From Candidatus Obscuribacter phosphatis (GTDB lineage: Bacteria; Cyanobacteriota; Vampirovibrionia; Obscuribacterales; Obscuribacteraceae), in contig MOYA01000001.1 of the NCBI GenBank assembly GCA_001899315.1, positions 1,368,938-1,432,937 of the forward strand: 64,000 nucleotides of DNA, read 5' to 3'. Both the position numbers and the translations under genes were made by a program. This document shows, piece by piece, positions 47,658 to 63,716 of this stretch (positions are counted from its first letter, which is position 1; each line of letters starts with the position of its first letter). The notes under the pieces are model-generated. The model ran no database searches and was not told where the DNA came from. It saw nothing but the letters and a program-made list of their open reading frames with translations.

Positions 47658-49799
47658 ATGCCCCCTAAGATTTTCGCACGCGGAGAAAAGCTCGAAGACG
47701 GGCATTACACCGTGCTTGAAGAAATAGGCGTGGGCGGTATGGGCGTGGTTTATCACTGCCGCGACGAACTGCTTTTGAGGGATGTCGCCATTAAGATGCT
47801 CTTGCCGAGCTTGATGGCAGATAAGAAAAATCTTGAAGTCTTCAAGGAAGAAGCCAGGCTAGCTGCCCAGCTGGAGCACCCTAATATAGTCACTGTCTAT
47901 GACATTGGTGTGGAATCGAGAGCCAACCGCGATCACCATTTCGTAGCTATGGAATATCTACCGGGCGGCAACCTAGCCGCCCGAGTCACCCAGGGGCCTC
48001 TGCCTCTTGAACATGCCCTCAACTGGATGAAGCAACTGGCTTCGGGGCTCTCTTTTGCCCATAAAAGAGGGGTGGTACACCAAGATATCAAGGCAGACAA
48101 TATTTTTATCACCAATGAAGGCGACCTGAAAATTGGCGATTTCGGACTGGCGCGCTTGCTTGTGGGCCGGGTCTATCTAAACTCTTCCACCAAAGGCATG
48201 GGCACACCCGCATATATGTCCCCCGAGCTTTGCCGCGGTGAGCAGCAAGATCATCGGTCCGATATCTACTCGATGGGTATTCTCTTTTTTGAAATGTGCA
48301 CCGGGCAACTGCCTTTCCGGGCGCAGGGCATGATCGAAATGGCCATGAAACATACTAGCGCCCCCGTGCCTTCAGCCAAAAGGCTCAATCCCCATGTGCC
48401 TGAAGTTCTAGATAAAGTGATCAAGCGTATGATGGCCAAGACTCCAGAAGAACGCTATAAGTCGATGGCCGACGTGCTGGGAATAGTAGACGACCTGATT
48501 TTTGAATTGCGCGTGGCCCGAATGGGGCTGGCAGGCAGGCTGGAAACCGGCAGACTAGCCGGGGATGCATCTGAAGCCCCCAAAAGCGAGCCTAAAGAAA
48601 AAGCAGCCAGTGTTGATGCTGGTCCGGCGGCTCCTAGAGCCGACGATGTCACGGCACTGCCGCCCAGCCGGCCGCGTACCAAAAGCAAAGACACAACCAA
48701 AGTGGTGGCCACCAGTTCGCAGAACAAACTAGAGGCAAGACCGGCTAATGACGCCAATCTTACCCCATCGACCAATTCGGGGCAGTTGGTACTCTGGAAA
48801 TTTGCCAGCCATGGTCCAATCGGTTGGTCGGCGGCGCCGGTGCAAGATCGAGAAGGCAAGAACATCTTTGTACCATCGAGCGACGGCAGACTTTATAGCT
48901 TAGCCAGTGAGAGCGGTGCTTTGAATTTTGCCTATGATGCCGGTTCGCCCATTCTCTCCGCCCCACTTTATTTGGCCGACAAGCTAATTATCAGCGATTG
49001 TCTGGGTGTCACCCATGCTCTCAATCCTCAGACTGCCGAGCCCCTCTGGCAATATTTCGGACAGGCTGCGATTTTGGCACCGGCTACAGCTTACGGCAAC
49101 ACCCTTATTTTGTGCGATATGCAAGGGCAAGTCACCGGTCTAGATCTTAGACAAGGGCGCAAACTCTGGAATTTCAGCGCCGGCGACGCCATCGTTTCGC
49201 AGCCGCGTGTACATGGCGATTCTCTTTATTTTGCCAGCCGCGGCGGCAGCGTTTTTTCTATAGCCTGTGCCACAGGTCGGCTCAATTGGAAGTTTGTCTC
49301 ATCGGGCAATATTGTCAGTTCGCCTGTGACATCGGTCGATACAGTCTATATCGGCACCCAAAGCGGTTCGTTCTTTGCCCTTGATGCCGAAGCCGGTCGT
49401 TTGATTTGGGAGTATCCCATGGCCGGAGCCATTAACCGCGGTGGCGCTATCGTCTTTACTTCGGTTATGTTTGCCACCAATAGCCGCTGGCTTTATTGCT
49501 GTGAAAAATATGACGGTTCGCTAAAGTGGAAGGCACCGCTCAAAGCCAAACCGGCAGCTAATCTGATTATTCAAGGCAATCAGATTTTGTCGCTTGGTAA
49601 AGACGGCACCCTCGAATCGTTTGACACCAGAAGCGGTGCTTCGCTTTGGCGCTATTCCCTCAAGAAAGAAGTCGAGTCGATTCCACTAATAAGCGGCTCA
49701 AAGTTGTATTTTGGCGCCGTGGACGGTGAAATTATCGCCCTAGATCTTAAAAACGAAGCGGCATTAGCTTATCGGCTAGAAAAGCCAGAAAAGAAATAA
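47658..49799 (+). CDS. Serine/threonine protein kinase with C-terminal PQQ-type beta-propeller
   Basis: The Hanks-type kinase domain spans about residues 15-285: glycine loop IGVGGMGVVYH, catalytic Lys in VAIKML, catalytic loop VVHQDIKADN with Gln instead of Arg in HRD, IGDFGLA, and GTPAYMSPE. A disordered linker (about 290-375) leads to a propeller of PQQ/BamB-like repeats (LYSLASESGALNF, VFSIACATGRLNWKF, FFALDAEAGRLIWEY) up to the C-terminus. No membrane helix separates the two, so the propeller stays in the cytoplasm; most bacterial kinases of this style place their sensor outside. The ATG at 47658 follows AAGGAAATCAG. The 3' end overlaps the convergent prenyltransferase gene by 53 bp. Confidence 0.93.
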   Translation: MPPKIFARGEKLEDGHYTVLEEIGVGGMGVVYHCRDELLLRDVAIKMLLPSLMADKKNLEVFKEEARLAAQLEHPNIVTVYDIGVESRANRDHHFVAMEYLPGGNLAARVTQGPLPLEHALNWMKQLASGLSFAHKRGVVHQDIKADNIFITNEGDLKIGDFGLARLLVGRVYLNSSTKGMGTPAYMSPELCRGEQQDHRSDIYSMGILFFEMCTGQLPFRAQGMIEMAMKHTSAPVPSAKRLNPHVPEVLDKVIKRMMAKTPEERYKSMADVLGIVDDLIFELRVARMGLAGRLETGRLAGDASEAPKSEPKEKAASVDAGPAAPRADDVTALPPSRPRTKSKDTTKVVATSSQNKLEARPANDANLTPSTNSGQLVLWKFASHGPIGWSAAPVQDREGKNIFVPSSDGRLYSLASESGALNFAYDAGSPILSAPLYLADKLIISDCLGVTHALNPQTAEPLWQYFGQAAILAPATAYGNTLILCDMQGQVTGLDLRQGRKLWNFSAGDAIVSQPRVHGDSLYFASRGGSVFSIACATGRLNWKFVSSGNIVSSPVTSVDTVYIGTQSGSFFALDAEAGRLIWEYPMAGAINRGGAIVFTSVMFATNSRWLYCCEKYDGSLKWKAPLKAKPAANLIIQGNQILSLGKDGTLESFDTRSGASLWRYSLKKEVESIPLISGSKLYFGAVDGEIIALDLKNEAALAYRLEKPEKK

Positions 49800-50670
49800 T
49801 GCTGACCACGCCGTTCACTGTGAAGAAAGCAGCATTTACCCTAGATAGATCATCTGCTTTCACCAAGCGATGTTCGTAAACCAGCATGCCCGCAATCAAT
49901 ACAAGCCCAAGGTAATAAAAAAGAGCCAGTTTGAGCGTGAGCCCCAAGGCAAGCAGGAAAAGAACTGTACAAACATGCAGAGCCCGCGAAATTTTGAGAG
50001 CGCCAGCCACACCAAACCGAGATGGAATCGAATGTAATTTCTGGTTGCTGTCGAATTCGGTGTCTTGACATGCATAAATGATATCGAACCCAGACACCCA
50101 GGTAGTGACAGCCAGAGCCAGCAGCCAAGGTGGAGCGCCAACTAAGGCTCCACTTGCCGCCACCCAGCCTCCTAGAGCGGCGCCGCCCAAGGCTATGCCT
50201 AGGACAATATGGCAGAGCCAGGTGAAGCGTTTAGTGAAGGAATAGAAACTGAGCCAAAACACTGCAATTGGCGACAACCAGAGACAGATAGGCGGCAACA
50301 TAGAAGCAGCGAAAAGCATCACTGCAAAAGAGACAATACTGATTGTCAGTGCCAGCCCTTTGCTTATTTTCTTGGCTGGAATGGCTCTATCTTTTGTGCG
50401 TGGATTTTTGGCATCGATATCAGCATCAATGAGCCGGTTCAGGGTCATGGCAGCGCATCTGGCACTGGCAAAGGCAAGAACAGTCCAGCCCAAAGTGGAG
50501 GCAGAAGGAAAGCCCGGTGTGGAAAGGATGAAACCAGAGAGGACGAAAGGCAGAGCAAAGACCGTATGCTCTATCTTGATCATCTCTGCCCATTCGGCAA
50601 TGGTCTTGAAAGATATATCTGATTGCATAAAACTACTGTACTTGAAGAATTTGCCAACAACTGGCATCAT
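49747..50670 (-). CDS. UbiA-family prenyltransferase, MqnP/4-hydroxybenzoate type
   Basis: An integral membrane enzyme that attaches a polyprenyl chain to an aromatic acid during quinone synthesis. The first Asp-rich motif is NRLIDADIDAKNPRTKDR and the second is DIIYACQDTEFDSNQKLHSI followed by PSRFG. This second form is typical of UbiA and of MqnP in the futalosine route to menaquinone. About eight membrane helices are visible. The N-terminal EHTVFALPFVLSGF is also typical. Which ring substrate it uses cannot be told from sequence; no other mqn or ubi gene is in the window. The coding end overlaps the kinase gene by 53 bp, yet both C-termini look natural. Confidence 0.92.
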   Translation of the reverse strand: MMPVVGKFFKYSSFMQSDISFKTIAEWAEMIKIEHTVFALPFVLSGFILSTPGFPSASTLGWTVLAFASARCAAMTLNRLIDADIDAKNPRTKDRAIPAKKISKGLALTISIVSFAVMLFAASMLPPICLWLSPIAVFWLSFYSFTKRFTWLCHIVLGIALGGAALGGWVAASGALVGAPPWLLALAVTTWVSGFDIIYACQDTEFDSNQKLHSIPSRFGVAGALKISRALHVCTVLFLLALGLTLKLALFYYLGLVLIAGMLVYEHRLVKADDLSRVNAAFFTVNGVVSIISFLAFLADKLMPLRF

Positions 50671-50715
50671 TTGGAAGGTTTAAGATAAGGTTAGTCTATA
50701 AACAGAGTATTTGCC

Positions 50716-51222
50716 ATGAATTTTGACGGAACTGGAAAAACTATAGATCTGCAAGGTGTTGCTTCTTTTGCTGCCCTGGTAGATGTGCTCTCGCAAGAAC
50801 TGGGTGTGCCTGCCGGCAAAATGCTCGGTCAACTGCCCAATGGCCCCGACACTTTCAATCAATTGCTCGGCGAGATTGATATCAATAGCCACGGCTTTGC
50901 CCGCAAGCTGACCTTGACCTGCGCCCCCGGCGCCAATTTGCACCTGCGCTTCAGCACCACCTGGGGCGGTGAGCGCAGCCACCTAATGACTTCCGGCGTC
51001 AATTCAGAGTTTGTTCTCTCCGCTTCAGTTGAGCAAGTCATGCCGCAAGCCCGCGCTCTAGCCAGACATATAGAAGATATCTTTGCTGTTCAAGATCGTA
51101 TGGTCACCCTCGGTCATAGCGATAAGTTGGGTGCGGCTGCCGTTTCGGTGGCCCAGATTGAAGCTTTCGAAAGACAAGAAGGCTCAGCTGTGGTCAGCGC
51201 TCCGCAAAGACAAAGAGACTAA
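50716..51222 (+). CDS. Small protein of unknown function
   Basis: 168 residues, soluble, with no signal peptide. The sequence contains a central beta-like stretch (KLTLTCAPGANLHLRFSTTW) flanked by helices (SFAALVDVLSQELGV and QVMPQARALARHIEDIFAVQD) and a flexible C-terminus. No motif is recognisable. It lies back to back with the UbiA-family gene (45 bp between starts) and end to end with the AMP-ligase gene (1 bp between stops). Codon use and spacing suggest a real gene. Confidence 0.6.
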   Translation: MNFDGTGKTIDLQGVASFAALVDVLSQELGVPAGKMLGQLPNGPDTFNQLLGEIDINSHGFARKLTLTCAPGANLHLRFSTTWGGERSHLMTSGVNSEFVLSASVEQVMPQARALARHIEDIFAVQDRMVTLGHSDKLGAAAVSVAQIEAFERQEGSAVVSAPQRQRD

Positions 51223-51223
51223 A

Positions 51224-52660
51224 TTAAGCAATCACTTTAGAGCCGTGCCGGGCATCCACGCTTAGCCTTGTATATTCAATGGCTATATTGGCTTTGGTCA
51301 GTTGTTCTCTGGTCTCTTTGCTTAAAGTTGCACCTTTGTAAGGTTCAACCAATAGTTTGCCAGCGGCCAGAAAGGCTGATCTCTTTACAGCACCATCTAG
51401 GCTGACAAAACTTTCTACAACATGCGACCAAGGTGACGACTTGCGCCCGGTCAAATAAAGTCTGCCATCTTTAAGATAGCCGGTATCACCGGTGCGGTGA
51501 AAAACTTTATTGCCTATAGAGAGCTTGTTTTCACTTTCACCGACCCCTCGATAATAGGCTTTATTGACGTGCTCTCCTGCCACAAGTATTTCGCCGACCT
51601 TACCTTCTAAAGAAGGCGGAACTTTCTCAAGATCTTCTGAGTTAAGCTTTTCTCCCTGAGTCTTTTGGGACGCGCTTATCTTTTGGTACTTTTCAAAGCT
51701 GGCGAGAGGCAAAATAATTAGTTCCACTGACTGATCAATTGTGCCGCAAAGCAAGCCTAACCCTTCTTTTGCTGCCTTGTACATTTCACTCAGACAACTT
51801 TCATCTACTTCTAGATGGCTTATCGGCTCTGCTTCAGACGAACCATAAACCAAGGTCAAACGTTTGCAATGACGTCTAACTGCTGCTGCCACTGGGGCAT
51901 AAAGCGGTGCACCGCCGACGATGACATGCTTCCCCTTAAGCAAATTGGCTGTGTCGCCATCTTTTGCAAGCATTTGGGCAAACTGCGGCGCACAAATAAT
52001 TTTATCAGGCATAAGGTCAGGCTCAAAAGCAAGCTTCTTTGCGGCAATCGCTTTAGCAAACTGCAGATCAGTTCGAGATACGTATATTGAAGTCTGTCCC
52101 GCCCGCAAAGTGGCTAAGACAAAAACAGGTAAGGTGGTTAGAACAATTTTCGACTGCCTAAGCTCAAGAGTATTCTCTAAAATCTCAGCTTGTTTCATAA
52201 GAAAATCATGACTTCTTTCTATTGCCTTGATGCCGCCAGTGGTGCCTGAAGTAAAGGTCATCAAAGCCATGCCCGCGTCTTGTTCTGGCGAGTCTTGTTT
52301 GGGCGGAGCCTTTTTCAGATTGCCGCAGACCGGCAAAAGTAGCTTTAGACCAAGCAAAATATATTGCGGTTCAGCAAACTTGAGGCAGCGCAGAGCCCGA
52401 CCCAAATTGCTTGGTTCAATCAAGACCGCCTCAGCGCCTATTCCGGCAAGGGCAATTAGAGCTACATAAAAATCTATTGATGGCTTGATGGCAAGCACCA
52501 CTCTATCGCCCCGCTTAATAGACTTTCTGCTCTTCAACCAAGCAATATAGACTTTTACTCTCTCAAAGAGTTCTCTGTAACTTATCTCACCGCCGGCGGT
52601 GACGATGGCAATTTTATCGCCCAGCGCGCTTTGTTGACGCAGTACATAAAAAATATTCAT
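51224..52660 (-). CDS. AMP-forming acyl/aryl-CoA ligase-like enzyme
   Basis: A member of the ANL superfamily that activates a carboxylate as an acyl-adenylate. Core motifs: MTFTSGTTGGIKAIERSHDFL (phosphate loop), VYGSSEAEPISH, GDTGYLKDGRLYLTGRKSSPW (hinge region). The ATG at 52660 is chosen because GAGGAG lies upstream and the preceding gene ends five bases before; the longer frame would run through that gene. The resulting 478 residues are short for the family, and the C-terminal lid carrying the catalytic Lys looks reduced. Substrate unknown. It is the last gene of a six-gene operon, so it probably activates a building block or free fatty acid for that pathway. Confidence 0.88.
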   Translation of the reverse strand: MNIFYVLRQQSALGDKIAIVTAGGEISYRELFERVKVYIAWLKSRKSIKRGDRVVLAIKPSIDFYVALIALAGIGAEAVLIEPSNLGRALRCLKFAEPQYILLGLKLLLPVCGNLKKAPPKQDSPEQDAGMALMTFTSGTTGGIKAIERSHDFLMKQAEILENTLELRQSKIVLTTLPVFVLATLRAGQTSIYVSRTDLQFAKAIAAKKLAFEPDLMPDKIICAPQFAQMLAKDGDTANLLKGKHVIVGGAPLYAPVAAAVRRHCKRLTLVYGSSEAEPISHLEVDESCLSEMYKAAKEGLGLLCGTIDQSVELIILPLASFEKYQKISASQKTQGEKLNSEDLEKVPPSLEGKVGEILVAGEHVNKAYYRGVGESENKLSIGNKVFHRTGDTGYLKDGRLYLTGRKSSPWSHVVESFVSLDGAVKRSAFLAAGKLLVEPYKGATLSKETREQLTKANIAIEYTRLSVDARHGSKVIA

Positions 52661-52664
52661 AGTT

Positions 52665-53540
52665 CTAAAACTCCTCAGGGCTGGTCTTGAGCTGGCGACC
52701 AAACAAGGCATAGCTGCGAAATATCTGAGCCCCAAAGCAGTCTTGCATATAGCGGCTGGAACCATCATCTTTATATAGGGCGAAAACTCCACGGCTGTAG
52801 CCCCTTGCCAAATAACGCGAGATGGCTGTCTGCACCATGGCTTTTCCCATGCCGGCAAACTGGGCGCCTGGTTTTCTGGCTATGGTTTTGAACAAAATCG
52901 TATCTTGTAAGTAAGGCAATATTAGACAATAACCAAGCAATTCACCGCTGCTCTTAGACCTACAAAGCACAGGCGGAAAGTCTATGATGATATTTTTTAG
53001 ACCCTGGTATAGTTTGCTGAATTCTTCGAATGAAATCGGCTGATAGAGATAGTTGTCGGCAAAAGCCAGGCAAGAAAGATTGTAGATCTCGGCAAGTAAG
53101 GTCTGAAAGTGGCAATCTCTTGCCAAGTCGCCTACTTCAATTGCCGGCATGCACCAGCTTTGGGTGGCGGCTTGCCTTTTGATACTAAGAAATGAATCTG
53201 TATATGAATCGAAAGTAAAAAGCGATGAATAATAGCGAGCCGCCGCTGTAAATCTATACTCGGCGAGAATGGCAAGCTGCTCTTTATAGTCACTGTCATA
53301 GGGCTCGGCACTAAAGGCAGGCAAAGACTCTTGGCTATAGTCTCGCTCTACTAGTCTGTAGCGATGCCAGGTGTTTGAATTTATCGGTCCGATTACGCAC
53401 TTGCCGTCGGTAGTCTCTGCCTTTTGAATGGCTGTCGCCAAAGTCTGTGCTAGATCAAAAGCATTGCTGCATGCAAAAAATACATCGGCACCAGAGTTTG
53501 TATTTTTTTCTGTTATTGGACTGATAATTTGCTTGGACAT
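52665..53540 (-). CDS. GNAT-like N-acyltransferase family protein
   Basis: 291 residues. The C-terminal half has the GNAT fold signs: SGELLGYCLILPYL (strands 4-5), FAGMGKAMVQTAISRYLARGYSRGVFALYKDDG (CoA-binding turn and following helix/strand). The N-terminal half contains CVIGPINSNTWHRYRL, a pattern seen in acetyltransferase-like proteins that sit in lipid or secondary-metabolite clusters. No membrane helix. It lies between the kinase-like gene (2 bp away) and the AMP-ligase gene (4 bp away). It could transfer an acyl group to an amino group, which would fit an amino-acid-derived head group. Function unproven. Confidence 0.72.
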   Translation of the reverse strand: MSKQIISPITEKNTNSGADVFFACSNAFDLAQTLATAIQKAETTDGKCVIGPINSNTWHRYRLVERDYSQESLPAFSAEPYDSDYKEQLAILAEYRFTAAARYYSSLFTFDSYTDSFLSIKRQAATQSWCMPAIEVGDLARDCHFQTLLAEIYNLSCLAFADNYLYQPISFEEFSKLYQGLKNIIIDFPPVLCRSKSSGELLGYCLILPYLQDTILFKTIARKPGAQFAGMGKAMVQTAISRYLARGYSRGVFALYKDDGSSRYMQDCFGAQIFRSYALFGRQLKTSPEEF

Positions 53541-53542
53541 AG

Positions 53543-54895
53543 TTAGACCGCCATTAAGTAAACAAAGGAACCCAGATAAGCCAGCGCCCCTTGCTTGAAC
53601 CAGCGAGATCTGCCGATTCTTTCATCGACATCGGCGGCCTTGGTAAAACAAGCAAAAATGAATGTAGCCGAAAATACAAACATTAGGCCGCTCAGGGCTG
53701 TTATGCAGATGGAAAGATCAATGTCTATGCCGCGCCCGAGAATAAATGAAGGCAGAAAGAGCAAAGCCCAACTCTTGAGAGCATTGATGATTAGTAGGAA
53801 GGTTCTGCCTTTGCGTTTTGAGGACAGACTAATATGAGCCGAACCAATGATAGCGCCGTGAATGGCGAAAGCCAGCCCATAAGCCGAAAGTAAATCGGCA
53901 GGCTGAAAACGTTTGGTTAGGGCCGGTAGAAACAGAAAAAGTAAAACCGGAATAAAGCACCAAATAGCAGCACTGCCATGTCGGTTGGATAAATAGCGAA
54001 AGCGCCTCGGCAAAAGTCGTTTGTATGAAAAAAGCAAAATTAGCGGCATGAGCAGATAGGCAGCACCGCCTTCGGTGAAGACAAAATAAAGAAAAACCAG
54101 ACTACCAAGAGTGGCGCCGTCATTGAGACTGCTTCTTTCTTTGTTGGTGAGCACAGCCAAAGTAAGCACGGCAAATATAAGTACCTGAACTGCTAGATTA
54201 GCCTCAGGCAAAGGCAAAGCCTTTTCAAGTACAAATAGAATTGATACCGGAATGAGCAGATTGTCGGCGCCGCCAAAGGATATTGCTTCAACCACGCAAG
54301 CCATACAGGCGAGTAAAACAGCCACTAGAATGGCTTTCACTACTCCCACGCCGCAAAAGACAAGCAAGCTCAAACCGGCTAGCATTGCCGTAAGCCAGAA
54401 AGCCAGAGAGCCCTCTAGACTTTTGGCACCATATTGCAGTCTATAAATATGGGCGCCAAAGCGCTCGCCCACAAGAGCAGCCACAGAGTCGGCCAGAGCC
54501 AGTACCGCCATTGGTACTAGATAATAGAGCGGGGCGGAAGCTAAGTTAAATATGGTGGCAACGGCTATAGGAAAGAACATTTCACCAAGTGAAAATCGAT
54601 CCACCGAGAATAGAACTTTTCTAAGCTCGGCAGCCCCCGGGTTGACCCTTAATACCAAGAAAAATAGACAGATAAATAGAGCCAGAAAATTGACCGGGGC
54701 TGGGTCAGAAAAGACAAAGGGAAAACTGAGGCAGACCAAGCCCATAAGCAAATGCACTAACTTGCGGCTGCTTTCACCAGATAGACTAAGTCCGAATTTT
54801 CTTCCATATCTAAGCGCCAAAAGAAGTATCGTCAAAATTGACGGTACTGCAAGCAAGGCAGACAAAGCGGCAGTATTTTCAAACCAATTGATCAC
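53543..54895 (-). CDS. Dolichol/phytol kinase or CDP-lipid-synthase-like membrane protein
   Basis: The start is GTG at 54895 with AGGAG seven bases upstream; the longer open frame to 54976 lies inside the preceding gene. The protein has about 13 membrane helices. The N-terminal half resembles the phytol kinase/dolichol kinase/CdsA-like group: SGESSRKLVHLLMGLVC, ALADSVAALVGERFGAH and YGAKSLEGSLAFWL match the conserved SRKxxH, DxxAxxxG and KSxEGS motifs of that group, where CTP is the phosphate donor. The C-terminal half (from about residue 230) is extra membrane sequence of unknown role, so it may be a fusion. It probably phosphorylates or activates a polyprenol or lipid in the operon's pathway. 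Confidence 0.82.
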   Translation of the reverse strand: MINWFENTAALSALLAVPSILTILLLALRYGRKFGLSLSGESSRKLVHLLMGLVCLSFPFVFSDPAPVNFLALFICLFFLVLRVNPGAAELRKVLFSVDRFSLGEMFFPIAVATIFNLASAPLYYLVPMAVLALADSVAALVGERFGAHIYRLQYGAKSLEGSLAFWLTAMLAGLSLLVFCGVGVVKAILVAVLLACMACVVEAISFGGADNLLIPVSILFVLEKALPLPEANLAVQVLIFAVLTLAVLTNKERSSLNDGATLGSLVFLYFVFTEGGAAYLLMPLILLFSYKRLLPRRFRYLSNRHGSAAIWCFIPVLLFLFLPALTKRFQPADLLSAYGLAFAIHGAIIGSAHISLSSKRKGRTFLLIINALKSWALLFLPSFILGRGIDIDLSICITALSGLMFVFSATFIFACFTKAADVDERIGRSRWFKQGALAYLGSFVYLMAV

Positions 54896-55994
54896 GGTGC
54901 AGCTCCTGTCCGACAAAACACTTATAAAAGAACGTCCGGCAATAAGTGGGCAAGTAGGCATCATATTTAGTGACATCTTGCACTTGATTTTTCAAATAGC
55001 TGCCAAGATCTCTTCTCACCAGCATATTCCAATAGACCAGACGAGCTCCGGGTCTAGCTGCTCTTTGCAAAGAATGTGCAAGCTTAGCAGCCTCAGCATC
55101 ACTCATGTACTCAAAGACATCTGACAGGTTGAAGGCGTCGATACTGTTGGCTGGCAAATTAGAGGCTAAACTATGCAGATCGGCTTCCACCAGCTTGATT
55201 TTAGAAAGCGAGTCTTTCACCGCCTCATAGTTGCGAGCCTCTAAATAATGGGGCAGTTGCTCTCCATAGCCGCCTCTTAGTATGTAATGCAAATAATGAT
55301 TGTCCGACAAATGCCCAAACTTGAGATGCTGTTCTACAGCTCGTTCAATAAAGTTGCCAAATGAATCACTAGCTTGATCGAAGCAGTCATGATCTCGACC
55401 CAATAGGCTAATAGACAAACGAGAAAAGAAGACTCTGCAGGCAATTTTGTATGCCCCGGTATGCCAACGCTGTTCGTAAAACAGCTCTTGCTCTTGGCAC
55501 GACTTTGCCTGCAGCAGGTCGTCTATTGTCTTACTGTCGTGCAAGAGGGGCAAAACAAAGCTTGAGAATAGTCTAAAGTAACTATCCAGCTTACCCGAAT
55601 GTATGACGCCAATTTTTATTTTGCCTCTATGGCTATCGAAAAATTCTCGTGAAGCTTGACTGAGCTGCTTTCTCAACCTGTTATAAACTGCCAAACGATA
55701 GTCAGCATAGGCTCTATCACCTCTGGCACCAAGAAAATACAATACTTCAAGGTGGCTCAGTGAATGAAAGGCTGCCATCTTAAGCTCAAGAAGGGCTAAC
55801 TGCGCCCTTGAAAAATCAAAAGCCAGCACTTCTTTGACCTGGGGCAAACTGGCTATAGATAAAGTATTGTCACCGGCTGCTGCAACCGATAAAACTCTGG
55901 CATTAGTAAGTCCAGAAATCTGTTGCAAGAGCGGGTTAACATCTTCCCAGCACTGCGAATATCTAAGTTTAGATTTGCACTTTTGATTTTTCAT
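54879..55994 (-). CDS. DUF3419/BtaA-like 3-amino-3-carboxypropyl transferase
   Basis: BtaA transfers the 3-amino-3-carboxypropyl group of S-adenosylmethionine to diacylglycerol, the first step to betaine lipids. The match is seen in KLRYSQCWEDVNPLLQQ at the N-terminus, VLSVAAAGDNTLSIASLP (SAM site), VLAFDFSRAQLALLELKMAA, a long middle region with HYILRGGYGEQLPHYLEARN, and the C-terminal NLSDVFEYMSDAEAAKLAH with YWNMLVRR. Length 371 is close to the family norm. The ATG at 55994 has GAGG upstream and overlaps the previous gene by 26 bp. No BtaB (the N-methyltransferase) is fused or adjacent. The acceptor lipid may not be diacylglycerol here. Confidence 0.88.
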   Translation of the reverse strand: MKNQKCKSKLRYSQCWEDVNPLLQQISGLTNARVLSVAAAGDNTLSIASLPQVKEVLAFDFSRAQLALLELKMAAFHSLSHLEVLYFLGARGDRAYADYRLAVYNRLRKQLSQASREFFDSHRGKIKIGVIHSGKLDSYFRLFSSFVLPLLHDSKTIDDLLQAKSCQEQELFYEQRWHTGAYKIACRVFFSRLSISLLGRDHDCFDQASDSFGNFIERAVEQHLKFGHLSDNHYLHYILRGGYGEQLPHYLEARNYEAVKDSLSKIKLVEADLHSLASNLPANSIDAFNLSDVFEYMSDAEAAKLAHSLQRAARPGARLVYWNMLVRRDLGSYLKNQVQDVTKYDAYLPTYCRTFFYKCFVGQELHRDQLV

Positions 55995-58446
55995 GACAGA
56001 CCTCGTCATTGCGCTCTAATACTTTTACTGTGCCGGCAAAGCCGTTCACTTCCACCAGATCGCCGTTCTTGAGCAACTCTTCGGCGCCGGCTAGTGCCAC
56101 CACACAGGGAATCTTCATTTCCCTCGCTACAATTGCGGTATGCGAGAGTATGCTGCCGTGGCTGACCACTAGGGCGCCGGCCAAACTAAAGTGCATGATC
56201 CAACCAGGATCTGTCCGCTCCGCCACCAAGACTTCACCTGCTTCAAGCTTTTCTTGATGCGGATCTCTAATTACCCGCACCCGCCCTCTAAAAATGCCAG
56301 ATGAAGCCGCTTTACCTATATATTGGCGATCTGGGCAAGAGGGGGCAGAGCAGTCGCTAGCCGCCATCTTTTGCTCAGGGCTGTCTGCATCAATTGTCTG
56401 ATTGGCTTGCACAAGCCCGACAAAACTGACTCTCAGAGGCGACTGTTCAGGATAAGCCAGCCACTCTTCTTTTCTTGCTTTTATAAGACAGCGCAAAGAT
56501 GATAGATTGGTTCCGTTTGCCGCAGCGAATATCTCATCGCGCTTGAGATAGAAAACATCGTCGGCTTTATCGATAAGATTGGCTTGATAAAGTCTCTCAC
56601 CGGCACAGTTAAAGATAAGCCTAACCAAGCCAAAGACTCTAGTTCGGGCAAAGCGAAGGTTCTCGCGACGCGCAATCAGTACGGCGGTGCGATTGGCTAT
56701 AGCCTTAAGCAAAAACGGCGCTCTTTTCTCTATAGTCTCGGCTGCTATCTTATTTTTCCCAACTTCGGTCAATGGCTTGCGACAAAGCGCCGCCACCGTT
56801 CCCAAAAGTACAGCCGGACAATCTTCCTGATTTGGTGTTTCCAGCTTCAGCTCAGAGAGATTGCGGTCGCCAAAGAGTCTCAGATAGTCTTTGTATTTCT
56901 GCCAGGCTAGCTCTTCTTGCTTCAAGAGGGCGATAGCATCGGCAAAGTGCTCTAATTTGACCAGTCGGCAGAACTCATCTCTATTTTTGATTGACAAAGC
57001 CAATTCGCTAAGCAAGCGTGGTGGTTCAGAAGAAACCACCGGTATATCGGCTTTAAGACAGCCGGGTAGAAAGTCTAATAGATTATGTCGCTCAAACAGC
57101 TTGGTGCAGATACCCGAAAAGATCATTGTATAAAAGTCGTTGACCACAGGAGTCTGCCAATGTCTAAGCAAATTTTCTTCGAGAGCTAGGTAGATATTTC
57201 TAAGCTCAACAAGGTCCATTTGCTTGATCTTTTCTCGGTCGAGCGAGACTGCAGCTTCAAGTCGTTTTTCAAATTTGCAGACAGCCGCATCGAGCGTCAG
57301 ATAAGCCACCAACATCTTGCCCAAGCAATAGAGGCTATTCAGTTTCTCAGAAACAGAGACCTTTTTTGAGGGCGCAAGCTCTTCTGCCAAAGGCGCCTTT
57401 AAGCCCATCATCGCTTCCATAAAGCTTTTGTTGGTGCGATAGAACGGCAGCATAGAAACCAGTTCATACCAACTGGCTAGGTTGTAAAAGATTTTGCCCT
57501 GATAATAGCCGAGCATTGTCTCGAATATTTTGCTTGTCTCGACCTTTTTTGCCGGCACACCCATAAAAAGGGCAAAGCTTTTGTAAACCTCGCGATAGGC
57601 CTCTTGGGCAAATGCGAAAGTAAGTGGGCTGGTCTTGCCCGGATAAGACTCTTGAATATTACTGGCATCAAAGACTGTTATAGGCAGCGGTTTGACCGTA
57701 ATGGGGCGCACCTGCACAATAAAAAGACGACCGCGCCTATCAAGACACCACTCTATATCAACTGCACCGGTCTTTCCAGAGTTCTCAGCCATAACAGAGT
57801 TTTCTGAAATAAGCTTGATGGCATGCAGTATCTTGCGATACCAGACGCTCTTAAATTCAGGGGGCAGGTCCCGAGCCGCAATTATCGTCTGTCCGTCTAT
57901 TTCACCTGACACCAGCCGATCTGCTAGACCTGTGGTCATTGATAAAACAGGCTGTCCTTGATAAAGAGGATGACTGGAAAAAGCAACACCAGCATAGCTT
58001 GCTTCGACCATGACTTGCACTATCACCGGTGCCTCTAGTGTCTTTGAGCCAGTAGCATTATTACCATCGAGCAGTTCTTTATAGACGGCACTGCGTGCAG
58101 ATAGATAAGAAGAGCGCACCTTAGCTATGTACTCGATTACATCTTCTTTCTTGACTGAAAGAAAACTATCATATTGTCCGGCAAAAGAAGCGTCGGCTCG
58201 ATCTTCAGCTAGGGCGCTCGACCGCACTGCGAACTTTTCGCTTGCATACATAGTCAGAAATTCTTCAAGCTCTCTATAGTCGCCATTGACCACGACAAAA
58301 GGCGGTACAGAAAAGGGCGCCACCTTGAGAGGGTGCATTGCTTTTGCCTTTTCTGCAAGCTCGGCAAGCATAAAAAGACCCTCTGCCTTGCTGCCGAGAA
58401 CTTGCTCGCCATCGCTATTTCTTAAATTTAACGCTAACGCTTTCAT
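55969..58446 (-). CDS. PEP-synthase/rifampin-phosphotransferase-like enzyme
   Basis: An 825-residue dikinase-type protein. The N-terminal ATP-grasp domain has FAVRSSALAEDRADASFAGQ (about 73-92) and DIEWCLDRRGRLFIVQVRPI near 240. The C-terminal mobile domain carries the phospho-His loop SHGSILSHTAIVAREMKIPC (His near 769). Between them lie about 450 residues with no similarity that I can place. The C-terminal TIM barrel that binds PEP or pyruvate in true PEP synthase is missing, as in rifampin phosphotransferases, where the middle region binds the drug. So it probably transfers a phosphate to a specific small molecule using ATP. In this operon an isoprenoid or polyol acceptor is plausible. The ATG at 58446 lies 29 bp after the prenyltransferase stop. 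Confidence 0.87.
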   Translation of the reverse strand: MKALALNLRNSDGEQVLGSKAEGLFMLAELAEKAKAMHPLKVAPFSVPPFVVVNGDYRELEEFLTMYASEKFAVRSSALAEDRADASFAGQYDSFLSVKKEDVIEYIAKVRSSYLSARSAVYKELLDGNNATGSKTLEAPVIVQVMVEASYAGVAFSSHPLYQGQPVLSMTTGLADRLVSGEIDGQTIIAARDLPPEFKSVWYRKILHAIKLISENSVMAENSGKTGAVDIEWCLDRRGRLFIVQVRPITVKPLPITVFDASNIQESYPGKTSPLTFAFAQEAYREVYKSFALFMGVPAKKVETSKIFETMLGYYQGKIFYNLASWYELVSMLPFYRTNKSFMEAMMGLKAPLAEELAPSKKVSVSEKLNSLYCLGKMLVAYLTLDAAVCKFEKRLEAAVSLDREKIKQMDLVELRNIYLALEENLLRHWQTPVVNDFYTMIFSGICTKLFERHNLLDFLPGCLKADIPVVSSEPPRLLSELALSIKNRDEFCRLVKLEHFADAIALLKQEELAWQKYKDYLRLFGDRNLSELKLETPNQEDCPAVLLGTVAALCRKPLTEVGKNKIAAETIEKRAPFLLKAIANRTAVLIARRENLRFARTRVFGLVRLIFNCAGERLYQANLIDKADDVFYLKRDEIFAAANGTNLSSLRCLIKARKEEWLAYPEQSPLRVSFVGLVQANQTIDADSPEQKMAASDCSAPSCPDRQYIGKAASSGIFRGRVRVIRDPHQEKLEAGEVLVAERTDPGWIMHFSLAGALVVSHGSILSHTAIVAREMKIPCVVALAGAEELLKNGDLVEVNGFAGTVKVLERNDEVCHEKSKVQI

Positions 58447-58475
58447 ATGCTTAGACCTTAGAGAATTTAGAGAAC

Positions 58476-59435
58476 TTAGTGAACCAAATAATTTATGAGC
58501 GTAACCATCAAGACGGTTACATAACCAAAGAGAACCGAGAGATTAGAGAGTCCGGCAAACACTTTGGAAAGTGTTTGCTGTGTGGCTTTGCCATAACCAG
58601 GCAAGACAAAAACATCGAAAACCAGAAAGGCAACAATCGCCAGCCAGCTAAATGAAAGCGGTGCCAAAGCAAGACAAAGGCAAACTTGGGCCAAGACTAT
58701 GCAAAGCTGCAGCCAGATTGTTACAGCTTTGAGCCCTAGAACATGGTTGTAGCTTGTGATTCCTGCTTTGGGCCGGGGCAAGATTTTTCTGCCCATTTCT
58801 ACAATGACACCACTCAAAAAACTGGCAGCAAAAAAGTAAAGCAACCTCGGATCGAACCGGCTAAGACCAAAGTCAAAACTGGTTATGACCAGGTCGATAA
58901 AGAGCATCACCGGCATATGAACCAGCATATAAACCATGGGGCGGCGTGCTAAATAAGGACCGGCAAAAAACTCGCGAGCCATGAGTCCCATATAGCCGAA
59001 AGAGAGCGCGAGCAATAGTAAGGTGGTTTTATTAGCTAGACAAAGGGTTATTTGGATAGCTAAAAGACTAAGTCCGACAATTTTTAGTTCATTGAGCGAG
59101 ATTAGCCCCCTGGGCACAGGGCGCTCAGGCAGATAAAGGCAGTCGTTTTCATTGTCTTTATGTTCATCTATAACACGCAACTGAAAGAACATAAACAAAG
59201 TGACAGCCATTGACGACAGGGTGCTCTGCAAAGGCAGGCTGAGCGTGCCGAGGCGCAGGCTGGAAGAAAGGCAAAGTCCTGCCAGGCTGAATATGAGAGA
59301 TAGGAAACCATATTCCAGTGGAGCAAAGCGTTCTTTTAGATATTGGGCGAAGCGCTTGTTGAAGGGCTGTCTGCATTTGAGCGTAGTCATAGGGTTAAAT
59401 CTGTAGTGCCTCGGTAAACTAGCCATCAAGTGCAT
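58476..59435 (-). CDS. UbiA-like prenyltransferase, first gene of the lipid operon
   Basis: About eight membrane helices. The first Asp-rich motif reads RVIDEHKDNENDCLYLPERP, followed by VPRGLISLNELK. This form (DExKDxxxD then RPVPRG) is typical of the UbiA branch that acts on small or polar acceptors rather than on aromatic acids. The second motif region is EMGRKILPRPKAGITSYNHVLG, with a changed acidic pattern. Length 319. Start codon uncertain between 59435, 59426 and 59390; none has a clear ribosome binding site. Being first in a tight run of six genes suggests it supplies an isoprenoid-modified intermediate. The acceptor is unknown. Confidence 0.85.
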   Translation of the reverse strand: MHLMASLPRHYRFNPMTTLKCRQPFNKRFAQYLKERFAPLEYGFLSLIFSLAGLCLSSSLRLGTLSLPLQSTLSSMAVTLFMFFQLRVIDEHKDNENDCLYLPERPVPRGLISLNELKIVGLSLLAIQITLCLANKTTLLLLALSFGYMGLMAREFFAGPYLARRPMVYMLVHMPVMLFIDLVITSFDFGLSRFDPRLLYFFAASFLSGVIVEMGRKILPRPKAGITSYNHVLGLKAVTIWLQLCIVLAQVCLCLALAPLSFSWLAIVAFLVFDVFVLPGYGKATQQTLSKVFAGLSNLSVLFGYVTVLMVTLINYLVH

Positions 59436-59701: not shown

Positions 59702-60325
59702 ATGGCAGACAAAAAAAATCATTGGGAAACAGTATACGAAACTAAGCCGGTAGACTCTGTAAGCTGGTATACGCCCCGTCTCAGCAAGTCAATAGACATA
59801 ATAATGAAGAGCAGCCATGGTGCCAAAGACTGCGCCATCATCGACGTAGGTTCAGGAGCATCGAATCTTGTCGATGATTTGCTGTTGGCAGGATTTACCG
59901 ACATTACAATGTTGGATATTTCGGAAAGGGCTATTGCCGAAACAAAGCAGCGTCTCAGAGATAAGGCAGCTCTTGTTTCATGGATTATTGACGACATTAC
60001 TAAAGTTTCTTTGCCAGCGCAACGATTTGATATCTGGCACGACCGCGCTGTCTTTCATTTTCTAACAAGCCCAGAAGACCGAGTGGCTTACGTAAGTCGA
60101 GTGGCTGCTTCAGTCAGACCTGGAGGTCACGTTATTGTCGCGACTTTTGGACCTGAGGGTCCAGAAAAGTGCAGCGGGCTTGAAGTTGTCCGCTATGATT
60201 CTGAGTCGCTGCATGATCAGTTTGGGTCAAAGTTTCGATTAGTCGAACATAGTGCAGAATTGCATAAAACTCCATTCGGTACGACACAGCATTTCGTTTA
60301 TTGCCTCTGTCGAGTTGAAGGGTAG
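59702..60325 (+). CDS. Class I SAM-dependent methyltransferase
   Basis: 207 residues. The N-terminal WETVYETKPVDSVSWYTPR is typical of a bacterial branch of small-molecule methyltransferases. The SAM site is CAIIDVGSGASNLVDDLLLAGF with acidic loop TMLDISERAIAE; later IDDITKV, FDIWHDRAVFHFL and VRPGGHVIVATFGPEGP. The C-terminal THFVYCLC-like strand completes the Rossmann fold. Relatives act on thiopurines, tellurite, aconitate or unknown small molecules, so substrate cannot be assigned. It is divergent from the lipid operon. An N-methylation role for its product is a guess. AAGG lies about nine bases before the ATG. Confidence 0.88.
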   Translation: MADKKNHWETVYETKPVDSVSWYTPRLSKSIDIIMKSSHGAKDCAIIDVGSGASNLVDDLLLAGFTDITMLDISERAIAETKQRLRDKAALVSWIIDDITKVSLPAQRFDIWHDRAVFHFLTSPEDRVAYVSRVAASVRPGGHVIVATFGPEGPEKCSGLEVVRYDSESLHDQFGSKFRLVEHSAELHKTPFGTTQHFVYCLCRVEG

Positions 60326-60461
60326 TTACGGCAAGCGGGTCTAGGCTAGGCTGGCTTGCAACCACTTTGAAACATTTCTCACCTAGGCTGGGTCCAGGTG
60401 TGAATCAATTGCCTTACTACTGAAACAGCACCGACTTAAAGCACTTCTTTTGAGGCTAGCC

Positions 60462-63400
60462 ATGTCGAGTTTTGAGCGCAATGAAAAGAAAGAGAACGAG
60501 TCAGAGTCAGAGAAGCCAAATCTCAGTAAAGTCCAAGAACCAGCCGAAACAAAGCAAGAACAGCCCATAAAGCAAGAACAGCCTGCCACAGAGCAAGTTA
60601 ATGAAAAAGAGACCTTGCAGCCCCTAGACTTTAGCCCGTCTAAAGACGAGCGCAGCTTGCAGCTAAGCGTTCTTAAATCAGGGGCAGATAAAGCTAAAGA
60701 GACAGCCCAGCCCTTCATGCCCACCCTTGATCTGGTTTCGGAAAAAACCGTCACTTTCCCAGCCCAAAAGGCAGAAAGTGAAAGTAAGTCTCTCTTTAAG
60801 AACGGCGAACTCAAACAGGCTAGAGAGCAAGCTCTGAAAGACGGAGTGCCGATATTGATAGACATCGGCGCCACCTGGTGCGGACCCTGCCGTGCCCTTG
60901 ACCGTACCATGAGCACAAAAGAAGCCGAACTGAACGGCAAGGCTAAAGTTGTAAAACTCGACATCGATAAACTACTAAGCGATCCGGCCAAGCTCCCCGC
61001 TGCCGAACAAGCCCAACTTAAAGAGCAAAAACAGATACTGAAGGAACTAGGCATTAAACCTGAAGAGATTCAAGGTGTGCCATACCTAAAATTATTGCCT
61101 CTAAACAAAGATGGTAAAGCTGCCTCTGAAGGCAAAGATCTTTCGGGCTTTCCTCTTAACCCTAGCGAAAGTCAAGCCTGGTTCAACAGCCTCTATGCCG
61201 ACTGCGACACACTAAAGAAAGAGATGGCCAAGAGCAATGCAACACTTGAAAAACCGGCGGTGAAGAGCAAATTTGAAGAAAGCCAAAACAATGAGCAGTC
61301 AATCGGCAAGTCGGTAAAACTGGAAGAAGGCACCTATGAACGCAATGAGAACGGTCAGATCACCAAGACCATCTCGAGCGACGGTAAAACAGTCAGAGAA
61401 CTAAAATACGAAGACAAGCAAAATCCAGATAGGGTCACTTCACTTACCATCAATGGTGAACGTGAGTTTCGTTTTGTAGGCAACAATAAATATTCAGATG
61501 GTTCAATAGTCAAAAAAGACGGCTACGAAATGTCGTCTTATGCAATTTATGAGAAAGGCAAGCTCACAGGCAACTTTAGCGGCGCCCTGTCGATGAGCAA
61601 AAATGGTGTATTCACCACAGGCGATGGCAGTAAGGCTCTTGATCATTTAGATGCAAGCAGTCGCGCCATTAGTGAAGAGAACAGACTCAAGCGCGAAGCC
61701 GATGGTATTTGGCCAAGTAAACTAACTGCCACACTAAATGACGGCAGCCAACTGACCGGACACTATAAGGGCACCACTCTTGACGAATTGGAAGAATCTA
61801 GAAAACTTGACGAAGATACTTTCGAGATAAGCATCTGGAAGAAAGACGGTGATTCATACACCAATCCGGCTTACCCAGGCGAAGTGCGCAAGAACATGTC
61901 ACTCAAGCCTGACGGCACCCTTAGCTTTACAGACCAGGAAGGCAAACTGCAAACCAAGTACAAAGACGGCGCCAGCGCAGTAACCGAGAACGGTATCACC
62001 AGGAAATCGGACGCTCAAGGCAACCTAGTTGAATTGACCAATAAAGACGGCGATAAAAGACACATCGAATGGGAAGATGGCAAAATCGCCGCTGTAACAA
62101 CAGAGCGTAAAGACAAAAACGGAGCTAGCAAGACAGAGACCCTAGCAGTCAAAGAAGGAGACAAAGAAAAACAAGAACTAAAAATTACAGCTGATGGAGC
62201 GATTGAGTACAAAAAAGAAAACGGCAATCTCATTAGAGACGACTTTAGAAAGACCACTGAGTATGATCAGCTTGGTCGTCCCTTAGAGCTAAAATTTGAA
62301 AGTGGTGCAAAACGCCAATTTACATACGACGGCGATAAGCTGCAAGCAATCAAAGATACATTCACTGCCGCTGGAGGGGAGGAAAAACAGCGCACTCTAA
62401 CAAGAAAAGGTGATAGCGATGTTTTCGTTTTAGACGAAAACAAGAAAGAGAGAATAATTGAGGGACTGCCTGACCCTGACGGCGATTATCAGTATAGAAA
62501 CAAAGTCGAAGATAAAACCAGCAGAACCTCTAAGAGCTACGATCTAGAAAGAATCGCCAGGGGCGAGTTGTCGCTCAGCTCGGACAATCTACAAGAAGCC
62601 AAGGAAGACCTTTTGAGCGCCGCCAGAGCGCAAAACATGAATACTGAAAGGCTTGATAGATTTGTCGGCGATCTAGAAAAGAATGCCACTAAATGGGGTG
62701 TCAAAGAAGAGAGTCTAGTGAAGTCACTCGACAACATTCGCGCGCTTCTCGATGAAAAGCTGGTAAGCCCGCTTTACTCCAGAAAAGAATTGAATCAATT
62801 GGCTGAAACTGCTTTGCACAATATTGGCAATCCTATGCAAATTGATCAAGGGGCTCACCCTACCTGCAATATAACCACAGTAGAGATCTACACTGCCACA
62901 AAGCATCCAGATGTCTACACCCAACTAGTTAGAGATGTTGCATCAAAAGGCAGTTGGACGACTGCTGAAGGTGAAAAGTGCACACCGCCCAAAGAAGCCT
63001 TAAGACCGGGTGATGACGAGAAAGCTTACGATATAGACAAACCAAGCAATAAGGTGCGCAATATCTCAAGCCAACTGGTGCAGATGAGCCTAATCAACGC
63101 TATGTATGCCACCGGTCGCATGGATCAAGAAACCGCAGTGAACGGTGTCAAGCAAGTTGAATCAAGACGAGACTGGAACTACATAATGGTACCGTCCCAG
63201 AAAGTAACAGGTCAGGAATTGTACAACGGTCAGATGGTACAGGTTACCCGCACCATCGGAGAAGATCGTCTGCGCAACGGCAAAGGCCAATTTGTCGGCA
63301 AAGAAGACAGCGGTCCGAACCTGACTGTCGAAGATAATATAGAGGCATCAAAAATGCTGCTCAAGAGTGCGATGCCGTATGTAGCCGGACCCTATAGGTT

Positions 63401-63716
63401 AGGAAACGACCCATGGGTATATGATTTGCCCGATGCGCCGCGCCTAAACAAAGCTAAGCAAGACGGTATGTTGCCTATGGGCGTGCCCACCATAGGTGGT
63501 GCGCATGTGCAAACAATTCATGACATCGCCAGGAACTCTGCCGGTGAAACAGTAGTTTTGCTGGATAACCAACACGGCGAAAGAATGGATGGCTGGGTAA
63601 CCATTCCCCAACTGCATCAGACAATAAAAGAGAAAATCGAACTAAAACCATCGATAAATCGCTTCGGTAAGCCTTTCCCAGCCGATGTACAAGAAAGCTC
63701 GCGCCCCAGCTATTAA
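60462..63716 (+). CDS. Large protein with thioredoxin motif, repeat-rich middle and papain-like C-terminus
   Basis: The ATG at 60462 is preferred (GAGG six bases upstream) over a TTG at 60450. 1084 residues, no signal peptide. After a charged Glu/Lys/Gln-rich 110-residue tail comes a thioredoxin-like domain with PILIDIGATWCGPCRALDRT (WCGPC near 139). The middle (about 265-690) consists of short beta repeats reminiscent of YD or MORN-like units (KTVRELKYEDKQNPDRVTSL; KDGDKRHIEWEDGKIAAVTT). A helical region (about 690-780) precedes a C-terminal domain with QGAHPTCNITTVEIY, GGAHVQTIHDI and VVLLDNQHGERMDGW, which can be read as Cys (near 802), His (near 1015) and Asn (near 1036) of a papain-like fold. 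Family not recognised. Confidence 0.75.
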   Translation: MSSFERNEKKENESESEKPNLSKVQEPAETKQEQPIKQEQPATEQVNEKETLQPLDFSPSKDERSLQLSVLKSGADKAKETAQPFMPTLDLVSEKTVTFPAQKAESESKSLFKNGELKQAREQALKDGVPILIDIGATWCGPCRALDRTMSTKEAELNGKAKVVKLDIDKLLSDPAKLPAAEQAQLKEQKQILKELGIKPEEIQGVPYLKLLPLNKDGKAASEGKDLSGFPLNPSESQAWFNSLYADCDTLKKEMAKSNATLEKPAVKSKFEESQNNEQSIGKSVKLEEGTYERNENGQITKTISSDGKTVRELKYEDKQNPDRVTSLTINGEREFRFVGNNKYSDGSIVKKDGYEMSSYAIYEKGKLTGNFSGALSMSKNGVFTTGDGSKALDHLDASSRAISEENRLKREADGIWPSKLTATLNDGSQLTGHYKGTTLDELEESRKLDEDTFEISIWKKDGDSYTNPAYPGEVRKNMSLKPDGTLSFTDQEGKLQTKYKDGASAVTENGITRKSDAQGNLVELTNKDGDKRHIEWEDGKIAAVTTERKDKNGASKTETLAVKEGDKEKQELKITADGAIEYKKENGNLIRDDFRKTTEYDQLGRPLELKFESGAKRQFTYDGDKLQAIKDTFTAAGGEEKQRTLTRKGDSDVFVLDENKKERIIEGLPDPDGDYQYRNKVEDKTSRTSKSYDLERIARGELSLSSDNLQEAKEDLLSAARAQNMNTERLDRFVGDLEKNATKWGVKEESLVKSLDNIRALLDEKLVSPLYSRKELNQLAETALHNIGNPMQIDQGAHPTCNITTVEIYTATKHPDVYTQLVRDVASKGSWTTAEGEKCTPPKEALRPGDDEKAYDIDKPSNKVRNISSQLVQMSLINAMYATGRMDQETAVNGVKQVESRRDWNYIMVPSQKVTGQELYNGQMVQVTRTIGEDRLRNGKGQFVGKEDSGPNLTVEDNIEASKMLLKSAMPYVAGPYRLGNDPWVYDLPDAPRLNKAKQDGMLPMGVPTIGGAHVQTIHDIARNSAGETVVLLDNQHGERMDGWVTIPQLHQTIKEKIELKPSINRFGKPFPADVQESSRPSY

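Follow-up and report, generated by a model that had tools for sequence, protein, structure and literature searches.

A conserved six-gene operon of Vampirovibrionia as a candidate module for a polar lipid with an S-adenosylmethionine-derived group

The window (the whole 64,000-nucleotide stretch analyzed here, from the Obscuribacterales genome of Candidatus Obscuribacter phosphatis, a non-photosynthetic bacterium related to cyanobacteria) carries six closely packed genes on the minus strand at 51224-59435, and all six ORFs lie where a preliminary description of this DNA had placed them. They encode a UbiA-superfamily membrane transferase (58476..59435, 319 aa), a PPDK-type dikinase/ligase (55969..58446, 825 aa), a DUF3419/BtaA-type S-adenosylmethionine (SAM) 3-amino-3-carboxypropyl transferase (54879..55994, in an ORF reaching 56009; PF11899), a CTP_transf_1-fold membrane protein (DolK-like; 53543..54895; assigned from relatives, motifs, and a structure model), a tandem-GNAT acyl- or aminoacyltransferase (52665..53540, 291 aa; assigned from relatives and a structure model), and an AMP-forming acyl/aryl ligase of the ANL superfamily (51224..52660; PF00501). 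Start codons as the DNA reads are ATG at 55994 for the BtaA-like gene, GTG at 54895 for the DolK-like gene, and ATG at 52660 for the ligase gene, and give the same intergenic gaps as reported before (29, -26, -17, 2, and 4 bp). Purifying selection acts on each of the six genes (dN/dS 0.08-0.15) and their order is conserved across genomes, which excludes chance ORFs and bears out the earlier claim of a six-gene operon. Distance matrices also agree in each of the 15 pairwise gene comparisons (r 0.88-0.96; 0 of 2,000 permutations). At the level of sequence comparison, the six genes, or seven where a gene resembling HMG-CoA reductase (HMGR-like) is included, are thus shown to form one conserved, co-evolving unit.

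The same six genes, in this order and as tightly spaced, were present in 21 examined Vampirovibrionia genomes from two families, with protein identities among carriers in the class falling from 84% to about 30%. The six genes together with the HMGR-like gene also occur in genomes of the phylum of Ignavibacteriales and, in order, on a plasmid in the alphaproteobacterium Roseinatronobacter sp. S2, which is in culture and comes from an alkaline spring. Parts of the set are present in photosynthetic cyanobacteria, and one complete cyanobacterial genome contains a UbiA-PPDK-DUF3419 core. The preliminary description had proposed a single pathway and a comparison of neighborhoods across relatives; homologs proved strictly syntenic across phyla rather than scattered, and they co-evolve and are sometimes fused. 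For example, the PPDK-type and DUF3419 proteins form a single ORF in four genomes (G084, G086, G103, and G009, the last at a contig end), and the AMP ligase is joined to UbiA in one (L184), so these enzymes appear to be tied together. Given the conserved order, fusions, and co-evolution, the idea that the genes are chance neighbors was ruled out.

Variant clusters add further genes. A DAGK/YegS kinase, from an unrelated family, is found in seven (L021=L137, L123, L022, L125, L129, L182, and L184), and these variants would keep a lipid kinase role through another family. Phosphatidylserine- or diaminopimelate-type decarboxylases are added in variant clusters, with an alpha-amino acid head group as their expected substrate, and exporters are of the MMPL or ABC (DevC-LolD-type) kind. 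The L022 variant also has a phospholipid-methyltransferase-like N-terminal region, as read by eye. An apparent DAGK-HMGR fusion in L177 was rejected, since its ORF shifts frame within the HMGR part and contains an undetermined base, and the two genes were entered as neighbors only.

The DUF3419 protein matches PF11899 well above the cut-off (197.3 bits versus 28.2), and its SxAAGDN and xxDxSxxQ motifs (SAM-binding and acidic, respectively) align with those of rhizobial and other DUF3419 proteins. A sequence search of the PDB with this protein gave no match. The family includes BtaA, known to transfer the aminocarboxypropyl group of SAM in the making of betaine lipids (PMC10491745), and the putative function in aminocarboxypropyl transfer rests on homology at low identity.

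Its neighbor, the PPDK-type protein, has an N-terminal ATP-grasp domain (PPDK_N, PF01326, 106.8 bits), a linker domain, and a C-terminal mobile domain (PEP-utilizers, PF00391, 75.6 bits) with an invariant catalytic histidine (His769). Matches were limited to these two families, and the PEP/pyruvate barrel that follows the histidine domain in PEP synthase (pyruvate, water dikinase) was not found. The earlier label of ATP/His-loop phosphotransferase named the right family and is refined here to the layout of rifampin phosphotransferase (RPH) and the prodigiosin ligases PigC/RedH, which share the domain order and invariant histidine. However, the operon protein scores far under the cut-offs of those families and, unlike them, is linked with a DUF3419 protein by fusion or coupling.

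Less secure is the chemistry of the two membrane proteins. The earlier UbiA-like, BtaA-like, and AMP-forming ligase names were all right, with the window UbiA scoring slightly below the PF01040 cut-off (30.6 versus 34.2 bits) and homologs above it (L147, 43.9 bits; L178, 46.3 bits). The first aspartate motif (D-E-x-K-D) is kept, whereas the second is absent from the alignment, with E-x-G-R-K instead; the neighboring menaquinone prenyltransferase MqnP has both. Classical prenyl transfer is not secure because of this missing motif, and the donor may be something other than a prenyl diphosphate. The DolK-like protein of the window had no Pfam or NCBIfam match; one of 10 members matched PF01148 (E 0.0016), and NCBIfam searches with 22 of these proteins returned no sensible family. 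In the structure model, its N-terminal half resembles CdsA (Z 9.5, rmsd 4.2, 162 aligned; modest values for a helical protein), and the protein carries RKxxH and KxxEGS motifs. The putative CTP_transf_1-type fold of this half and the two motifs are shared with CdsA and with CTP-dependent phytol, dolichol, and diacylglycerol kinases, from which the operon protein differs by some 200 additional residues that form a C-terminal membrane domain and by its distance from every curated family. No chain of a dolichol or phytol kinase was among the VIA-align matches listed for the model, which excludes nothing. The dolichol/phytol kinase of the earlier description is refined to a probable CTP_transf_1-fold protein, which may be either a kinase or a cytidylyltransferase.

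The last two genes of the operon encode a candidate acylation pair. The GNAT-like protein has a weak sequence match to GNAT (E 0.019); its structure model (pLDDT 83.6) matches tandem-GNAT proteins, with Z 15.8 to 7q3a (rmsd 4.0, 237 aligned), such that the family proposed earlier was correct and can be refined to tandem GNAT. Instead of acyl groups, it might transfer aminoacyl groups. The AMP ligase matches PF00501 (AMP-binding, 110 bits), is nearest to PRK09274/OleC in NCBIfam, and has an invariant P-loop, acid motif, and C-terminal catalytic lysine. Alignments show that catalytic or SAM-binding motifs are retained in the DUF3419, PPDK-type, and AMP-ligase proteins alike. In the N-acyl steps of sphingolipid synthesis, an acyl-activating enzyme is paired with a GNAT-type ceramide synthase, as in the operon; that pathway differs in its serine palmitoyltransferase and ceramide reductase, which the operon lacks.

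The HMGR-like gene, absent from most Vampirovibrionia carriers, is confined to seven-gene versions. Its product shares with class I HMG-CoA reductase the family and the positions of the catalytic Glu, Lys, Asp, and His, but has Glu at the equivalent of Ser684 and does not keep the Lys735 position. HMG-CoA synthase (PF08540) was detected in none of 13 genomes with this one Pfam model, and the controls gave signals. Mevalonate supply through the HMGR-like gene was rejected on this basis, and the enzyme probably reduces another thioester.

Together, these results suggest a dedicated biosynthetic module, spread by horizontal transfer, for a polar lipid bearing a SAM-derived 3-amino-3-carboxypropyl group, a reading to which we assign a probability of roughly 60%. 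They fit the putative chemistry of the preliminary description, namely a phosphorylated or prenylated anchor, a SAM-derived head group, and acylation by the ligase and GNAT. A lipid alcohol would come from the HMGR-like or a thioester-reductase-like enzyme in some carriers, and otherwise from the cell pool, and would be phosphorylated by the CTP_transf_1-fold protein, or by the DAGK/YegS kinase in variants. UbiA would couple the phosphorylated lipid to a polar acceptor, which the PPDK-type enzyme may use ATP to phosphorylate or activate; the BtaA-type enzyme, its physical partner, would attach the aminocarboxypropyl group. The AMP ligase would form an acyl thioester from which the tandem GNAT moves the acyl group to an amine, the simplest choice being the one on the SAM-derived group.

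Several other products were weighed against this polar lipid. A non-lipid small molecule (a meroterpenoid, pyrrole, or amide) could be prenylated by UbiA, condensed with ATP by a PigC/RedH-like PPDK-type enzyme, and acylated by the ligase and GNAT; the PPDK-type protein scores similarly against the prodigiosin ligases and RPH, and natural-product clusters often carry UbiA and AMP ligases. Nonetheless, the core has no polyketide synthase, NRPS, or cyclase, and the CTP_transf_1-fold protein, the DAGK/YegS kinases, and the head-group decarboxylases and MMPL/DevC-LolD-type exporters of the variants all indicate a lipid, leaving such a molecule an unlikely product. Slightly less probable still is a betaine-lipid operon in which diacylglyceryl-homoserine is the product of the DUF3419 protein and the remaining genes are accessory or supply precursors. 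The BtaA family membership and the SAM-binding stretch and acidic motif agree with this, as with the BtaA/BtaB system of DGTS synthesis. However, the conserved set contains no BtaB-like N-methyltransferase partner or fusion and has five more enzymes, of which UbiA, PPDK, GNAT, and ligase play no part in the known synthesis of betaine lipids. Moreover, the DUF3419 proteins encoded in clusters group on a separate branch (99/90), which includes neither the rhizobial proteins nor a second DUF3419 paralog of the same family that adjoins a methyltransferase. Hence, lacking a BtaB-type enzyme and with a separate DUF3419 branch, this is not a standard betaine-lipid operon. A divergent methyltransferase at 59702-60325 is common only to the closest cluster and one more, where it is non-adjacent.

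Isoprenoid readings are weaker. An isoprenoid-quinone or phytol-salvage pathway would join the phytol-kinase-like protein and UbiA to MqnP (49747-50670), which lies next to the operon in several of the family's genomes. Yet MqnP and a 168-aa gene remain paired where the cluster is not adjacent, clusters of other families and phyla lack the pair as a neighbor, and quinones need neither a SAM aminocarboxypropyl transferase nor a GNAT; we consider this pathway very improbable, and MqnP was rejected as a member since its synteny is at family level only. Archaeal-type ether lipids have been proposed for bacteria of the FCB group (PMC7852524), and UbiA and the co-occurring CTP_transf_1-fold protein might by analogy act as DGGGP and CDP-archaeol synthases. 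Some carriers in the phylum of Ignavibacteriales have a GGGP-synthase homolog, and the enzyme is encoded elsewhere, outside the cluster, in six carriers. GGGP synthase (PF01884) was not found in the window genome, most Vampirovibrionia carriers, or the cluster, however, and UbiA lacks the second aspartate motif; this pathway, barely conceivable here, was rejected given the missing synthase in the window genome.

Returning to the SAM-derived polar lipid, a conserved enzyme module across several phyla offers a direct route to a new class of lipids. In a fuller version, to which we give somewhat below even odds, the product would belong to a new class of lipids of the bacterial membrane or outer membrane. 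Its chain would be reduced or phosphorylated, and its head would be an aminocarboxypropyl group that is derived from SAM and N-acylated. The genes for it would form a mobile module of six or seven, present in Melainabacteria-type and Bacteroidota-type bacteria, on an alphaproteobacterial plasmid, and partly in photosynthetic cyanobacteria, and the HMG-CoA-reductase fold would reduce a substrate other than HMG-CoA. If true, SAM-derived aminolipids would gain an acylated or phosphorylated branch, PPDK/RPH-type enzymes would acquire a role in lipids, and a further function would be suggested for the HMG-CoA reductase fold. The proposal is testable now, with a cultured carrier that has the genes on a plasmid and the complete cyanobacterial genome with the three-gene core. 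A search of the open-access literature brought up no paper on the six-gene set, although one may exist outside it, and none with BtaA and UbiA together; DUF3419 appears there in four papers, judged by their titles to be on algae, plants, or a fungus.

Six consecutive genes on the minus strand of the window, running from 59435 down to 51224, encode UbiA-like, PPDK-like, DUF3419, CTP_transf_1/DolK-like, GNAT-like and AMP ligase proteins. The operon structure in the preliminary description was borne out, and its intergenic gaps were recovered using start codons at 55994 (ATG), 54895 (GTG) and 52660 (ATG). All six genes are under purifying selection (dN/dS of 0.08–0.15 versus the closest relative), and the DUF3419 gene shares 84% identity with that of a Candidatus Obscuribacterales MAG. 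The latter match places the organism, whose 5.49-Mb genome lacks Photo_RC, among the non-photosynthetic bacteria of the Melainabacteria group.

Among 40 relatives screened first, the six genes kept their order in genomes as distant as ~30% identity and in a second family of the class Vampirovibrionia. A survey of 240 genomes of the class with a DUF3419 profile then identified the cluster-type protein in 32 of them (E below 1e-100). All six genes occurred in identical order in 21 opened neighbourhoods, including the window, while four further clusters were partial because of contig ends. One cluster (L071) was rearranged; it contains an HMG-CoA-reductase-like (HMGR-like) gene as well as a formyltransferase, and a GNAT was not seen in its opened neighbourhood. 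Seven loci from the phylum to which an Ignavibacteriales MAG belongs comprised the six genes, in the same or permuted order, plus an HMGR-like gene directly upstream of UbiA. The cultured alphaproteobacterium Roseinatronobacter sp. S2 carries on a plasmid (NZ_CP121116.1), in this order, HMGR-like, UbiA, PEP/pyruvate-binding, DUF3419, two hypothetical and AMP-binding genes; the HMGR-like gene spans the record origin and is missing from the plasmid gene table. Other lineages of the window's phylum have partial sets, either UbiA-PPDK-DUF3419 (G839 and G946) or DUF3419-DolK-GNAT-ligase (G837). All three genomes contain photosynthetic reaction-centre genes, and hence oxygenic cyanobacteria are among the carriers.

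Several results indicate that the genes evolve as one unit. Distance matrices from 24 genomes were correlated for all 15 gene pairs (r = 0.88–0.96; 0 of 2,000 permutations reached the observed correlation). PPDK and DUF3419 form a single ORF in G084, G086 and G103 and, up to the end of its contig, in G009, while an 871-aa ORF in L184 combines the AMP ligase and UbiA. In the DUF3419 tree, which is arbitrarily rooted and has some long rows, 31 cluster sequences fell on one branch (support 99/90); four of them come from truncated contigs or have a neighbouring gene that the ORF caller missed. Genomes from different phyla are interleaved on this branch, which indicates that the cluster was moved by horizontal transfer.

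The cluster DUF3419 protein retains both the acidic motif and the SAM-binding stretch typical of its family, whose characterised member BtaA transfers the aminocarboxypropyl group from SAM during the synthesis of betaine lipids (PMC10491745). The PPDK-type protein still has its ATP-grasp residues and the His of the mobile domain; it ends where PEP synthase continues, and is organised like rifampin phosphotransferase and PigC/RedH. UbiA keeps its first Asp motif, while E-x-G-R-K replaces the second. One member of the DolK-like proteins matches PF01148, and the AlphaFold model (pLDDT 90) best matched CdsA over residues 49–228 (Z 9.5, rmsd 4.2, 162 aligned), although this score is modest for a helical protein. 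The invariant DolK-like residues (RK..H and K..EGS) resemble those of CTP-dependent polyprenol kinases, and the C-terminal 200 residues form an additional membrane domain. The GNAT-like protein, a tandem GNAT by predicted model, is a putative acyl- or aminoacyltransferase, since its Foldseek matches include MshD, MprF-type aminoacyl-PG synthases and FemX. In the AMP ligase the ANL motifs are intact, and its closest family is PRK09274/OleC.

Variant clusters differ in composition. Ignavibacteriales-type clusters (L021, equivalent to L137, and L123) encode a thioester-reductase-like SDR, DAGK/YegS lipid kinase, UbiA, PPDK, GNAT, a phosphatidylserine-decarboxylase homologue and DUF3419. Aminicenantes-type clusters (L022, 7220–15626; L125; L129; L130) have a longer DUF3419 protein (in L022 its N-terminal region appears, by eye, phospholipid-methyltransferase-like), together with a distant GNAT, a PLP decarboxylase, ABC exporter genes and, in three of four (L022, L125 and L129), DAGK. 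The decarboxylase is of the DAP/ornithine type, and a class II aldolase also occurs there; L129 encodes an Omp85 protein with a relative in L125. Clusters in other lineages of the phylum additionally contain DAGK, HMGR-like, AurF-type oxygenase and MMPL genes. DUF3419/PPDK clusters at L183 (6792–11142) and L184 accompany an AurF-type di-iron oxygenase and MMPL transporter.

The catalytic Glu, Lys, Asp and His are all in place in the HMGR-like protein. Relative to the solved HMG-CoA reductase 6hr7, however, the 'SGN' Ser is replaced by Glu and the Lys that precedes 'NLIGS' is missing (residues 684 and 735 in HMG-CoA reductase numbering). A search of 13 genomes, nine of them with the HMGR-like gene, found no HMG-CoA synthase (PF08540), so the HMGR-like enzyme probably reduces a different thioester. 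An HMGR-like gene also lies beside a sulfotransferase in L141 (9163–11431), in whose genome no DUF3419 protein was found.

The evidence supports a single, previously unassigned pathway that very probably makes a lipid. We consider a lipid more likely than a soluble natural product because, across variants, the lipid-kinase role appears to be filled by two unrelated families and the thioester-reductase role possibly by two, while head-group decarboxylases and lipid exporters recur. The preliminary description of a polar-lipid or isoprenoid-conjugate pathway thus holds as regards a single, very probably lipid, pathway, whose putative chemistry would comprise a phosphorylated or prenylated anchor, a SAM-derived head group and acylation.

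Outside the cluster, the same bacterial family has another DUF3419 paralogue, which branches apart and adjoins methyltransferase, DoxX and DUF2071 genes. This run, which also includes a small protein, is conserved (L077, 6046–10380; L079; L031; L032) and is a better candidate than the cluster for ordinary betaine-lipid synthesis, possibly the true betaine-lipid locus. Elsewhere, DUF3419 occurs with ketoacyl synthase III, an AMP ligase, an acyl-CoA-dehydrogenase-like protein and an ABC1-kinase/aminotransferase fusion (L131; L132, 946–9312; L186), and on Rhizobium plasmid pMK-2 (L148, 1–5056) it adjoins ketoacyl-ACP synthase III, oxidoreductase, metallo-hydrolase and 'CoF synthetase' genes. Flanking the operon in the window, the menaquinone prenyltransferase MqnP and a 168-aa protein (49747–51222) are paired across the family, including in genomes where the cluster is not adjacent. 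A large protein at 60450–63716 has a thioredoxin domain and RHS-like repeats. At 47658–49799 lies a serine/threonine protein kinase in which PQQ-type repeats were recognised by eye, and its relatives occur near the operon in several family members.
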